A stretch of DNA of 64,000 bases, taken from Sialis fuliginosa. Taxonomy: Eukaryota; Arthropoda; Insecta; Megaloptera; Sialidae. The DNA is taken from assembly GCA_961205875.1 (NCBI GenBank), contig OY540810.1, positions 2,666,001 through 2,730,000 of the forward strand, read 5' to 3'. The first letter of the stretch is position 1, and every line of letters starts with the position of its first letter. A model generated the notes under the pieces. That model saw only the letters and a program-made list of their open reading frames with translations, was not told the DNA's origin and made no database searches. Below, piece after piece: positions 189-61,411 of this stretch. The position numbers and the translations under genes are program-made.

Positions 189-216
189 TAATATATAAAA
201 ACGTTGGTGTTTACGT

Positions 217-699
217 ATGTGACCTCATCACGCCTAAACCACTGGACGTATCGAAGCCATATTCACACCATATGTTTGTTTGGTGCTCCGATAAGTTTAT
301 ATTTTTTTTGGACCCGGTAGGTGGCGCTGGGGTCGAGATATTTTGAAAAATTACATTTTTTCCATGTAAAAAAAATATCAGAACTTTTTTTTTATGTGAG
401 ATCATCAGACCTAAACCACTGGACGTATCGAAGCCATATTCACACCATATGTTCGTTTGGTGCTCCGATAAGTTAATAGATTTTTTGGATTCGGTAGGTG
501 GCGCTGGGATCGAGATATTTCGAAAAATTACATTTTTTCCATGTAAAAAAAATATCAGAACTTTTTTTTTATGTGAGATCATCAGACCTAAACCACTGGA
601 CGTATCGAAGCCATATTCACACCATATGTTCGTTTGGTGCTCCATTAGGTTTATCTAGTTTGACCCGGTAGATGGCGCTGGAGTCGAGATATTTACGAA
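217..699. repeat. 177-bp tandem repeat, about 2.7 units
   Basis: Near-identical units begin at 217, 394 and 571, a period of exactly 177 bp. The third unit is partial and diverges near 700. Because 177 is divisible by 3, a minus-strand frame of 144 codons (211-645) stays open across the array and reads as a repeating 59-residue unit. I treat that as a by-product of the period, not a gene: the units differ little, so lack of stops is not independent evidence. It could be a short piece of satellite or an internal tandem repeat of a transposon. Confidence 0.9.
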
Positions 700-10005: not shown

Positions 10006-10104
10006 ATCAAATACAAATCCCCTAACCATAAAAATTGTAAGAGTTTAGACTTACACGTGTTTCAATAGCAATGCTATCATCATCAGAGTCCTAAAGACAC
10101 TGTG
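10006..10104 (-). mobile_element. Hammerhead class 1 element with ribozyme
   Basis: Minus-strand reading gives a type I hammerhead at about 10046-10092. The order is stem I 5' strand (GGACT), CTGATGA, stem II (ATAGC with GCTAT), GAAA, palindromic stem III CACGTG, a U-A cleavage step, then the stem I 3' strand (AGTCT). All conserved core bases are present. The outer boundary ATCAAATAC is shared with the copy at 13742. No target duplication is visible, so this copy may be cut at its far end. Confidence 0.82.
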
Positions 10105-10160
10105 TTTTTTATTATTATTATTGATTTTGCAAGATTTCAACTGTAAATAGATAACAATAC

Positions 10161-13729: not shown

Positions 13730-13952
13730 ATTTGAATACATATCAAATACAAATCCCCTAACCATAAAAATTGTAAGAGTTCAGACTTACACGTGTTTCA
13801 ATAGCAATGCTATCATCATCAGAGTCTTAAAGACACAGTTGCTATTGAAACACGTGTAAGTCTGAACTCTTACAATTTTTATGGTTAGGGGATTTGTATT
13901 TGATAAGTCATAACCATAGTTTTTGTCTGTTGTTTGTTATATTTGAATACAT
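13730..13952. mobile_element. Head-to-head hammerhead class 1 insertion
   Basis: The insert 13742-13940 (199 bp) is flanked by perfect 12-bp duplications ATTTGAATACAT. The left half (minus sense) carries a complete hammerhead and tail. The right half repeats the distal ribozyme and the same tail in plus sense, plus about 35 further bases, giving inverted arms near 65 bp. A target duplication of this size and an inverted 5' portion fit target-primed reverse transcription with twin priming, as known for LINEs and Penelope-like elements. It encodes no protein. Confidence 0.85.
13782..13828 (-). ncRNA. Type I hammerhead ribozyme, class 1 (best copy)
   Basis: Minus-strand order: stem I 5' strand AGACT; core CTGATGA (13816-13822); stem II GATAGC/GCTATT with a three-base loop; GAAA; stem III CACGTG with no loop; U then cleavage base A (13788); stem I 3' strand AGTCT. 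Stem I pairs over 5 bp. A loopless palindromic stem III is too unstable alone and usually acts as a dimer, as known for hammerheads in Penelope-like elements and animal retrozymes. One extra U precedes stem II. The fold was judged by eye. Confidence 0.8.
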
Positions 13953-40077: not shown

Positions 40078-40236
40078 ATAATTAATCGCACTTTCAGAAG
40101 AGTCCTGAAGATGTCCACTGCAATGTGTGACGAAACGTTGGCCGATAACACGACCAAATCGACGCGGTTTACACCCAGAAGCCAAGATCCATATCAAGAT
40201 CACCGCGGAAAGCCTCAAGACTTGTATAATTAATCG
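40078..40236 (+). mobile_element. Hammerhead class 2 mini-element, 137 bp
   Basis: The insert at 40089-40225 lies between perfect 11-bp duplications ATAATTAATCG. It consists of a short leader, a hammerhead (about 40101-40144), a tail with a GGTTTACACCCAGAAGCC hairpin-like block, and the end CCTCAAGACTTGT. It is collinear with 48033-48155 and 61313-61399. The duplication length fits target-primed reverse transcription. It encodes no protein and would depend on a Penelope-like or LINE enzyme in trans. Confidence 0.85.
40101..40144 (+). ncRNA. Hammerhead ribozyme motif, class 2
   Basis: Order: stem I 5' strand GTC (40102-40104); core CTGAAGA (40105-40111), matching CUGANGA; stem II GTC-CAC with GTG-T-GAC around a six-base loop; GAAA (40132-40135); minimal stem III ACGT; cleavage base T; stem I 3' strand GGC. 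Stem I is only 3 bp and stem III has no loop, so activity as a monomer is doubtful. Dimeric action is the known solution for such hammerheads. Confidence 0.7.
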
Positions 40237-47085: not shown

Positions 47086-47267
47086 GGGCTCAGGGTTTAA
47101 TAGAGTCCTTCGACTTATTTTTGAAAATAAGTATTACGAGTGACATATCGTTGTAAATTAGAGTGAAAAACACGTTCAAATATGATCTTTGTGCCATCTA
47201 AAAAATATTAAACTTAGGGCTTGTAACTCAAAAACGGAAAGCAATATGAAAATTATTAAAACCCCAG

Positions 47268-47372
47268 TTTTGAGGCTTCCACGGTGATCTGTATATGTAT
47301 ATTGGCTTCTGGGTGTACGCCGCGTCAAAACGTTTCGTCACACATTGTAGTGGATATCCTCAAGGCTCTTTT
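47268..47372 (-). mobile_element. Hammerhead class 2 element, decayed
   Basis: Minus sense. It retains 'caatgtgtgacgaaacgttt', 'cacccagaagcc' and 'ggaagcctcaa', but the CTGANGA core is disrupted and about 20 bp downstream of the cleavage position are deleted. No target duplication found. Almost certainly inactive. Confidence 0.75.
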
Positions 47373-48018
47373 AAAAACAGACTTTTAAAATATAACACGA
47401 CCAAATTGACGTCAAAACTACATCACTTATAGATACTGAGATTCCCATACTGTAAAAGTTATCTGGAACAGCCTGTATACTATATACTGCCATATAAGAT
47501 ATATTTCGTGAATTTTTTATTTAAATTTAATAAATAATTTTTATTTTTAGAACTGAATGAATTCGTTGTTCTCAAATTACAAAAAATTGTTTATCGCAAA
47601 ATGAATGACAAAATAAAATAAAATCTTTAAATAACACATTCTTTATATTAAAAAGAATTTATCTTGTTCATACAAAAATAATAATTGTTGATAAATATCC
47701 TAATTAAGTAATCACGGGATAATTAGTGTCTTAAGCATGCAAACTTGTAAGGTTTATAAATAATGCATATACAAATACATTTATAATTTACTTTACCACA
47801 CACGTTTAGTAAATAAACGTTAAATACAAAATAATTATAACCATAACCTAATTGGTTATTCTGTTATTTATCAAGAATAATATTCTTACCTTGGGTTGCA
47901 CAAATCAAAATTAATCAGTTGTTTTAAAACCATTATTAAGTCAATTCTAAAAAACAATCAGGGTTATGATAAATTTTATAAGGTAAAAAATTATCATATT
48001 TAGTGAATTGTTCATTTA
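47373..48018. other. No recognisable feature
   Basis: A+T-rich. 47450-47480 has a short string resembling a mariner-type end ('ggaacagcctgtata'). Confidence 0.45.
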
Positions 48019-48169
48019 CAAATTGAAATTAAAGTCTTGAGGCTTCCGCGGTGATCTTGATATGGATCTTGGCTTCTGGGTGTATGCCGCGTCGGTTTGG
48101 TCGTGTTATCGGCCAACGTTTCGTCACACATTGCGGTGGACATCTTCAGGACTCTCAAATTGAAATTAA
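48019..48169 (-). mobile_element. Hammerhead class 2 mini-element, 123 bp, 14-bp TSD
   Basis: The insert at 48033-48155 lies between perfect 14-bp duplications CAAATTGAAATTAA. Minus reading starts AGAGTCCTGAAGATGTCC and ends GCGGAAGCCTCAAGACT, with core CTGAAGA, GAAA and the class 2 stems (ribozyme about 48110-48153). This is the smallest complete copy: one hammerhead plus a tail of about 77 nt with a GGCATACACCCAGAAGCC block. The 14-bp duplication and fixed end fit retro-insertion. Confidence 0.87.
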
Positions 48170-48866
48170 GTTTAGAATTAACATTAATCATGGTTTGAAA
48201 ACAACTGATTAACTAATCGTGGTTAATTTTGTTTTATGCAACCCAAAAAAGTGCCTAAAATAGGAATTTTTCGGAACAGTTTTGCTACTTACAGGATTTG
48301 TTACAAATGTGGTGTAGAATAATACCCTAAGTTTGCTCCGATTTTATGATTTTTTGCTAAGTAAATTACGGTCTAAAAAAATACTATCAAAAGAAGTTTC
48401 GAATAAAAGTTCTTCGCTATAAAATTCCCTACAATCTTCATTAAAAAAAATTATTTGTTTATGCGCTACGTACGCTAAAAAAGTGGTTAAAAATACACTT
48501 TTTTGTAGGTGAAAAACATATTTGTATATGAAAATTAATTTTTCTGTGTATTCTACAAAAAATATTTCAAATAAAAACATTGTATATAAAATACACGTAA
48601 CATATAAAAACAGCAAAAAACCACGCGGTGAAAAACCTCTCGTGCGTTCTTGGCTTTAGGAAGTCTTAACTACATATTTTATTAAAAATCTAAAAAACAT
48701 TATGAATTTTTAATATCATACGGAATATGATATTTTAAGAAAGAAACTACTTTTATGATGATTTTTTTTTAATATTACAAAACACACATTTACGTTTTAT
48801 AATGAAACCTTTTTATAACACATGTCATCAAAACAGTCCTTCCTTGCCTTACGAAAATACCAAAAA
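48170..48866. other. No recognisable feature
   Basis: A 90-codon minus frame (48344-48616) has no recognisable motif. No repeats noticed. Confidence 0.45.
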
Positions 48867-49612
48867 TTAACACGTTAACTGCCACCATACAAACTTTTTA
48901 AGAGTGATACTTATGACTATGAAACCTTTTTTATAATACATATCAACAGAAACAGTCTTAAGCCTACGGAAATACAAAAAATTAACACGTTAACTGCCAC
49001 CATACAAACTTTTTAACGGTGATACTCATGGCTATGAAACCTTTTTATAACACATGTCATCAAAACAGTCCTTGCCTTACGAAAATACATAAAATTAACA
49101 CGTTGACTGCCACCATACAAATTTTTTTCGGGCGATACTCATGGCAATGAAACCTTTTTATAACACATGCCATCAAAACAGTCCTTGCTCTACGAAAATA
49201 CACAAAATTAACACGTTGACTGCCACCATACAAATTTTTTTCACGCTATACTCATGGCAATGAAACCTTTCTATAACACATGCCATCATAACAGTCATAA
49301 TCCCAAGAAAATACATAAAATTAACACGTTGACTGCCACCATACAATTTTTTTTCGGGCGATACTCATGGCACTGTCACCTTTTTATAACACATGCCATC
49401 ATAACAGTCATAATCCTAAGAAAATACACAAAATTAACACGTTGACTGCCACCATACAAACTTTTTTCAGGCGATACTCATGGCACTGTCAGCTTTTTAT
49501 AACACATACCATTATAACAGTCATAATTCTAATAAAATACACAAAAATAACACGTTAACTGCCACCATAAAAACGTTTTTTCGCGTGATACTCGTGGCAG
49601 TTAACGTGTCAA
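48867..49612 (+). repeat. 113-bp minisatellite inside a piggyBac-like MITE
   Basis: Seven units start at 48869, 48984, 49097, 49210, 49323, 49436 and 49549, each with AACACGTTRACTGCCACCAT. The first is preceded by TTAA's TT, giving TTAA|CACGTTAACTGCCAC. The last is closed by the inverse GTGGCAGTTAACGTG (ending 49608) and then TCAA, a mutated TTAA. So the array lies between the two TIRs of one piggyBac-like element. Spacing is 113 bp in five of six steps (first 115). Two short overlapping frames inside are not genes. Confidence 0.9.
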
Positions 49613-55146: not shown

Positions 55147-55193
55147 CACTCGACACGTGTTTCGATTTCACAAGAAGTCCTCATCAGGAGCCA
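55147..55193 (-). ncRNA. Hammerhead ribozyme motif, class 3
   Basis: Minus-strand order: stem I 5' strand GGCTC; core CTGATGA (55181-55187); an imperfect stem II (17 nt, ACTTC with GAAAT); GAAA; stem III CACGTG; U then cleavage base C (55152); stem I 3' strand GAGTG. Stem I pairs over 4 bp including a wobble. All core bases are canonical and the cleavage base C is the preferred one. The surrounding element could not be delimited. Confidence 0.75.
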
Positions 55194-61300: not shown

Positions 61301-61411
61301 TGCTTACATGAAACGTTGACCGATAACACGACCAAACCGACGCGGCTTACACCCAGAAGCCAAGATCTATATCAAGACCACCGCGGAAGCCTCAAGACTT
61401 GCTTACATGAA
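61301..61411 (+). mobile_element. Hammerhead class 2 element, 5'-truncated, 12-bp TSD
   Basis: The insert at 61313-61399 (87 bp) lies between perfect 12-bp duplications TGCTTACATGAA. It begins ACGTTGACC, at the distal part of the hammerhead and 5 nt before the predicted cleavage position. It continues through the CACCCAGAAGCC block to the common end CCTCAAGACT. The ribozyme core is absent, so this copy cannot self-cleave. Confidence 0.85.

Follow-up and report, generated by a model that had tools for sequence, protein, structure and literature searches.

Short mobile units in the genome of Sialis fuliginosa are probably mini-inserts of a Penelope-like element

Results and Discussion

Copies of the unit in the window

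The window analyzed here is a stretch of 64,000 nucleotides of Sialis fuliginosa (contig OY540810.1, positions 2,666,001 to 2,730,000). It holds four copies of a short unit, located at 48033-48155 (- strand), 40089-40227 (+), 61313-61399 (+) and, in rearranged form, 47266-47376 (-). Positions within the unit are counted on its own strand, with U1 being the A of AGAGTCC, and the ATG of its reading frame, which resembles that of Penelope-like elements (PLEs), begins at U13. The following features were assigned:

48019..48032: left target-site duplication, 14 bp
48033..48155, - strand: unit, U1-U123 (with U124 belonging also to the duplication), containing the end of a leader, a hammerhead-like motif, the start of a PLE-like frame and the reverse transcription (RT) start sites B and A
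48156..48169: right target-site duplication, 14 bp
48111..48155, - strand: minimal hammerhead-like motif, with CTGAAGA at 48143-48149 and GAAA at 48119-48122; negative in Rfam
48032..48143, - strand: PLE-like frame from the ATG (48141-48143), MSTAMCDETLADNTTKPTRHTPRSQDPYQDHRGSLKT
48060..48064, - strand: RT start site B (U92-U96), at which most inverted arms have their outer end
48032, - strand: RT start site A, the 3' end of the unit (U124 here, U124-U128 in most copies)
40089..40227, + strand: copy with the complete 5' end CACTTTCAGA; 11-bp duplication 40078-40088/40226-40236
61313..61399, + strand: truncated copy that begins within the hammerhead-like motif (about U34-37); 12-bp duplication 61301-61312/61400-61411
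47266..47440, - strand: fourth copy, rearranged, with an internal deletion in 47266-47376 and an inverted fragment at 47392-47411

The initial annotation had reported three insertions with distinct, perfect target duplications and one common 3' end. This was confirmed for the copies at 48033, 40089 and 61313, whose duplications of 14, 11 and 12 bp are perfect and which share the 3' terminus CTCAAGACTT; the insert between the 11-bp duplications spans 40089-40225. Among 20,000 random placements in the window, 192 showed a duplication of at least 11 bp, partly caused by simple repeats. The 5' ends of the three copies are unlike, lying at about U-9, U1 and U34. The fourth copy, which the initial annotation had missed, terminates at CTCAAAACT and carries the inverted fragment upstream in its own orientation; a finer test found no duplication of at least 6 bp around it. 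The window also harbors two tandem arrays, one at 48801-49599 (113 bp, 7 copies) and one at 216-701 (177 bp, 2.8 copies), the latter overlain by a stop-free frame of 147 codons at 211-654 (-).

Copies in the genome

The 392-Mb assembly (20 contigs) was searched with the unit and with its 38-residue translation. The DNA search yielded 337 first-look candidates and the translation search 7046 loose candidates; the best 40 and the best 150, respectively, were scored and all of them matched, the latter with E values below 1e-18. In total 62 loci were read: 38 from the DNA search, as two of the 40 scored places were window copies, 20 of the 34 places with an identical translation, and the four window copies. 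The 58 loci outside the window were chosen by near-full-length similarity, and truncated copies are therefore under-counted. A further search with the tail of the unit alone, in which common words were skipped, gave 55 candidates, of which the best 40 were scored.

The genomic copies define a discrete element with a length of about 134-138 bp. Its exact 25-nt 5' end is present 439 times, with the arms of pairs counted singly, whereas the reversed control sequence does not occur. From 7 loci in 203 kb, a non-random sample, the copy number was estimated at about 13,500 (5,400-27,800). A search of viral contigs with a 24-nt pattern gave no match. The proposal that the unit is mobile, with discrete ends and target duplications, was thus borne out, as the genome search recovered a high copy number, common ends and target duplications.

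Ends of the unit

The 3' end of the forward arm falls at U122-U128 in 60 of the 62 loci, which corresponds to positions +110-116 of the ORF; the two exceptions (L029 and L035) both end at U119. According to the available text on a PLE studied in vitro, reverse transcription starts not at the RNA 3' end but +111-118 nt into the ORF, within an AC-rich stem loop, and the "tail" of 30-40 bp known from such elements is the interval between two RT start sites (PMC11167929). The 3' end expected for an internal RT start of this kind was thus found in all but the two exceptional loci. The two start sites of the unit look alike by eye (AGAAGCC..AAGATCCATAT and GGAAGCCTCAAGACTTGTAT), and the ends of the arms are fixed at these sites, A and B.

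The forward arm begins at U-12 to U-5 in 39 loci, at U-4 to U13 in 22 and at U34 in one, the copy at 61313; none of the 62 loci, a sample biased towards long copies, extends past U-12. At 40089, L023 and L135 the target duplication directly abuts CACTTT(T/C)AGA, with one mismatch in 12 in the duplication of L135. Moreover, 87 loci have a pair of complete 5' ends that lie head to head, no more than 14 nt apart; 43 of the 50 listed have no spacer, the joint being exactly GTG/CAC. Together these observations indicate a discrete 5' end that precedes AGAGTCC by 10 nt. The initial annotation had erred in taking AGAGTCC for the shared 5' end, since the true end is CACTTTTAGA and the window copies differ at this side; its view that a discrete 5' end would speak against random truncation of a longer element holds for the end found here, although not at AGAGTCC.

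Other 5' ends occur as well, as is evident from the copy at 61313 and from the tail-only search, in which 8 of 41 rows start near U71. Seven of these rows were read; six begin at U72 and one is longer. The separate copies L127, L128, L129 and L130 all start at U72 (TACACCC) and have unlike upstream flanks, which makes U72 a second recurrent 5' end; no duplication was visible by eye at these four. A tandem array of four 184-bp copies (L126, C5:289800-290600) consists of monomers that carry the tail (about U72-U125) without the hammerhead-like motif.

Head-to-head composites

An inverted arm lies directly upstream of the forward arm in 43 of the 62 loci according to local alignment, and BLAST hits on both strands were likewise obtained in 43 of 62. 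The fourth window copy falls just below the score cut of the local alignment and was counted as single. The outer end of the inverted arm is located at U90-U104 in 36 of the 43 composites, some 20-38 nt short of U124-U128, and mostly coincides with the second fixed site, one tail shorter; the remaining seven (L012, L021, L024, L033, L037, L083 and L093) end elsewhere, and none of the 43 inverted arms reaches U110. The inner end, by contrast, is variable (U-12 to U76) and in many cases lies well inside the unit.

In the first set of loci, 17 of 27 composites have a target duplication of at least 8 bp at their outer ends and none has one at the inner joint, and in the second set duplications of 12-14 bp were found in 14 of 20 loci. 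As the duplications enclose the composite and not its joint, each composite represents one insertion. Over all first-set loci, duplications of at least 8 bp were present in 24 of 42 (absent in 18) and of at least 10 bp in 18 of 42, whereas a null in which the left flank of one locus was matched with the right flank of another gave 12 of 825 and 0 of 825, respectively. Palindromic head-to-head joints with a duplication around the whole, as described for the pLTRs of PLEs, are found here too, although some composites lack the duplication. The shortfall of 20-38 nt in the inverted arm matches the optional tail, about 30-40 nt in length, that PLEs can carry on one pLTR of an inverted pair.

Because the queries included the tail, the sample that shows the pattern of one tailed and one tail-less arm favors loci with at least one tail. 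This sampling would have revealed composites with two tailed arms, and none was present among the 43. Tail-less ends were also encountered independently: 14 of 41 rows of the tail-only search end at U91-U97, and L135 is a single copy without a tail. More than one hit on the same strand was obtained in five of the 62 loci; three of these are one arm split into two parts, one is a distant fragment and only L101 contains two tandem arms, all other loci being single or head to head. The unit had been described as inserting singly, which it does at some loci, while the inverted arms at most sampled loci and the tandem at L101 show that this is not the rule.

Kinship with resident Penelope-like elements

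The unit is composed of a leader, a hammerhead-like motif that overlaps the ATG, and about 110-116 nt of reading frame. It had been characterized as little more than one hammerhead plus a tail, which is a misdescription of a PLE-like leader followed by the first 37-38 codons of a PLE-like frame that ends at an RT start site.

PLE frames reside in the same genome. A GIY-YIG search gave 89 matches among the best 150 of 160 candidates, with open frames of up to 934 aa. Three of the PLE frames, among them those of families A and A3, were tested and scored 50.6-66 bits for RVT_1, above the cut-off, and 17.5-21.2 bits for GIY-YIG, below the curated cut-off of 22.6. Family A (L054-L058, L062 and L070) contains CCTGAAGATGG...CCGAAACGTC with the ATG placed as in the unit, and its copies end at about ORF +82 or +116 (manual count), mostly before an (AT)n run. 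Over the whole length the alignment of the unit with family A beats each of 2000 shuffles, and downstream of GAAACGT it is equalled by 9 of 2000. For family A2, 21 (whole length) and 182 (downstream) of 2000 shuffles do as well. Hence kinship beyond the hammerhead-like part is firm for family A only.

No frame with RT and GIY-YIG is present in the unit, and the translation search likewise found no long frame continuing it among the best 150 of 7046 candidates, where open frames measured 43-215 aa. The absence of an attached long element in these places supports the earlier suggestion that the reverse transcriptase which moved the unit is encoded elsewhere. Most likely it is that of a PLE. Two apparent parents were rejected. 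The 215-aa frame on contig C8 is a unit beside an exon of a KCNH channel, and L070, with a PLE frame about 3 kb away, is by eye another composite with its own duplication. In the former case (L105, C8:9504000-9505700) the unit is located about 30 nt upstream of a presumed splice acceptor of a KCNH2-like potassium channel exon (E 9e-30), and the frame is open through both. The parent of this subfamily may have been lost, may have diverged or may lie beyond the places scored; alternatively, the unit may by now be an orphan that is mobilized in trans. The idea of a stand-alone unit is thus correct in that the element is discrete and mobile, and has to be amended in that it derives from the start of a PLE and is often paired. 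Selection on the frame gave no clear signal in shared or singleton variants: 2 of 8 variants shared by at least four copies, 7 of 15 in two or three copies and 19 of 64 singletons were synonymous, compared to 22% expected if all changes were equal.

Similar mini-inserts occur in two PLE families with RT frames, A and A3, where they start some 30 nt downstream of a TATA box. All 24 candidates of family A were scored, and of 29 rows nine start at query position q1 (long copies), nine at q123-128 and 11 elsewhere; TATATAAA begins at q95, 32 nt before q127. For family A3 the best 40 of 209 candidates gave 47 rows, with 15 starting at q1-8, 14 at q85-89 and 18 elsewhere, and TATATAAG begins at q56, 31 nt before q87. 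Twenty places of both families, chosen as short copies, were fetched and comprised nine family A and 12 family A3 alignments, with both families represented at L106; six of the former start at q123-128 and seven of the latter at q85-87. Some of the family A mini-inserts are head to head. Many of these inserts are embedded in (AT)n runs, which preclude an assessment of duplications. Three copies of family B in the window were compared. By eye, the first starts at query position 136, with TATATAAA at position 103 preceding it by 33 nt; the second is attached to an inverted arm close to position 136, and the third extends further upstream. The best 40 of 1143 candidates in the genome search with this family were all long, so that short copies were not visible there. 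Based on the TATA spacing in these families, we infer that the 5' end of the unit corresponds to a transcription start. At L106 (C14:1711500-1712200), head-to-head mini-inserts of families A and A3 are positioned side by side.

The hammerhead-like motif

The motif at 48111-48155 resembles a minimal hammerhead; from the motif and the cut rule, cleavage is predicted between 48115 and 48114 (U41/U42), a site that lies 29 nt past the start codon. An alternative fold with a long closed stem III (CGTTGG/CCGACG) was dropped, as by eye no UH cleavage site follows that stem. The core CTGAAGA ... GAAACGTT is intact in 29 of 36 rows checked. Rfam searches of 201 and 191 nt around the unit (E up to 10) detected no hammerhead, and a search of the entire window (E up to 1) gave none either. 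None of the sampled forward arms, a sample biased against truncated copies, begins at U41/U42. The motif was probably inherited from a PLE leader, and nothing in the sequences points to an activity of the motif or to a role in setting the ends.

Origin of the units

The unit is probably a PLE mini-insert, that is, a run-off cDNA reaching from the 5' end of a PLE mRNA to an internal RT start and primed at one or both ends of the cut DNA. The mRNA would start at CACUUUUAGA, with the hammerhead-like motif and the ATG following a few nt downstream. A PLE protein would cut the target and start reverse transcription inside the RNA, either at site A (ORF +112-116) or at site B (about ORF +80-84), and the cDNA would run off at the nearby mRNA 5' end; because the start is so close to that end, the product would measure only about 103-138 bp. 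In many cases the second DNA end would also prime a cDNA, starting from the site that the first had not used, and both products would be joined head to head, often at the terminal GTGCAC palindrome, with the duplications enclosing the composite. For RT starts about 80-116 nt into the ORF, run-off cDNAs of about 93-138 nt are expected, and run-off from the mRNA 5' end accounts with one assumption for the fixed ends in three families.

Random 5' truncation is normal for non-LTR elements, and the copies might be ordinary 3' ends of a long retrotransposon, like the copy at 61313, which starts inside the motif, and the tail-only rows that start near U71. Forward 5' ends, however, cluster between U-12 and U-5 in 39 of the 62 loci of the sample, which favors long copies, and never go further, the exact 5' end recurs 439 times, 43 of 50 listed joints lie exactly at it and the best 150 of 7046 places have no long frame attached, which makes this origin very improbable. 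We consider it similarly remote that the unit is an animal retrozyme, in which a self-cleaving hammerhead RNA is circularized and reverse transcribed. Retrozymes do occur in animals (PMC7229834), and the intact core, the tandem arms of L101 and three 5' ends on the same strand within 320 bp at C2:27212950-27213268, known from the listing alone, would be in line with such an origin. However, in the available text published retrozymes are tandem and about 170-400 nt in length (PMC7229834), whereas the units here measure about 134 bp and are non-tandem in 61 of 62 loci. The single 184-bp array (L126) bears only the tail, Rfam finds no hammerhead, and the ends are fixed at RT start sites, with none of the forward arms sampled beginning at the predicted cut.

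For the inverted arms, priming from the second DNA end fits an arm with its own fixed start. Snap-back of the cDNA with self-priming, or use of an antisense template, could instead have formed them; self-priming has been proposed for rotifer Penelope elements in the part of the text consulted (PMC3846280), and a perfect 24-bp palindrome is formed at 43 of 50 listed joints. Such a process predicts a variable outer end, but in 36 of 43 composites the outer end falls at U90-U104 and it is the inner end that varies (U-12 to U76), often well inside the unit; we therefore regard it as unlikely. An independent SINE-like family with its own promoter is about equally doubtful. The high copy number and the lack of a parent in the best 150 of 7046 candidates are in its favor, but with the A and B box consensus sequences that we assume for RNA polymerase III, the best A box has 2 and the best B box 5 mismatches, which is no better than in 1000 shuffles. 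As resident PLEs with RT frames make similar mini-inserts, no separate promoter is needed. More tentatively, and with somewhat less than even confidence, the run-off origin can be extended to a parentless PLE leader that has become a SINE-like family of roughly ten thousand copies and records two-sided target-primed reverse transcription in its A and B ends and palindromic joints. If so, every PLE whose mRNA starts near an internal RT start would yield run-off mini-inserts.

Comparison with known elements

The PLE PAc of Anolis (Penelope/Poseidon) resembles the unit in several respects, as far as the accessible text describes it (PMC11167929). Its ORF starts at hammerhead stem II, the cut site follows the ATG by 26 nt (29 nt predicted in the unit), and internal RT starts lie at +111-118 compared to mostly +112-116 in the unit, each with a second start one tail away. 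In vitro, PAc also extends the two strands of the DNA, which would be in keeping with the head-to-head arms of the unit. Both strands share the same RT start sites in PAc, however, whereas the arms of the unit differ in this respect, with site A in one and site B in the other. Unlike PAc, the unit ends at an mRNA-like 5' end and measures about 134 bp.

Penelope elements of Adineta vaga, in the sections available (PMC3846280), share with the unit inverted head-to-head pLTRs, palindromic joints, target duplications around the whole, a 31-bp tail on one pLTR and captured or solo pLTRs. Their pLTRs measure about 190-220 bp, surround full ORFs and are low in copy number, and several solo pLTRs lack duplications, whereas the unit has no ORF and its copies number at least in the hundreds. 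As in this insect, short non-autonomous Penelope copies are prominent in heliconiine butterflies; the available text gives neither anatomy nor ends nor a hammerhead for them (PMC6685494). Animal non-LTR retrozymes are also small, bear hammerheads and are presumed to be moved by PLEs in trans, but they differ in being tandem, 170-400 nt long, with canonical type I hammerheads and circular RNA, according to the portion of the source at hand (PMC7229834).

Inverted pLTRs, tails, palindromic joints, solo pLTRs and short non-autonomous Penelope elements have thus been published before (PMC3846280, PMC6685494, as far as their accessible parts go). In the literature searched, which covered few subscription papers, no description was found of mini-inserts that span a transcription start to an RT start. 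What is new is the anatomy itself and the clarity with which this set of units marks where copying starts and stops. The family, in which the exact 5' end recurs 439 times and head-to-head joints occur at 87 loci, displays RT start sites, the 5' stop, cDNA joining and target duplication together. It may also explain why short Penelope pieces can outnumber full ones, because with an RT start near the mRNA 5' end full copies would need read-through tandem transcripts.

Other hammerhead-like leaders

Two further leader types were observed in the window. At 55149-55190 (-) a 161-nt Rfam search gave a weak Hammerhead_1 match (17.6 bits compared to a gathering score of 34); L050 has this third leader type as well, close to a GIY-YIG match. 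A different hammerhead-like leader, CTGATGA...GAAACACGTGTAAGTC, is present in three copies at 1238-1311, 10026-10111 and 13738-13908 (all -), and it also adjoins PLE frames of up to 815 aa in L061, L064, L065, L071, L072 and L074. The copy at 13738-13908 forms a head-to-head palindrome with 70-nt arms that are 99% complementary.
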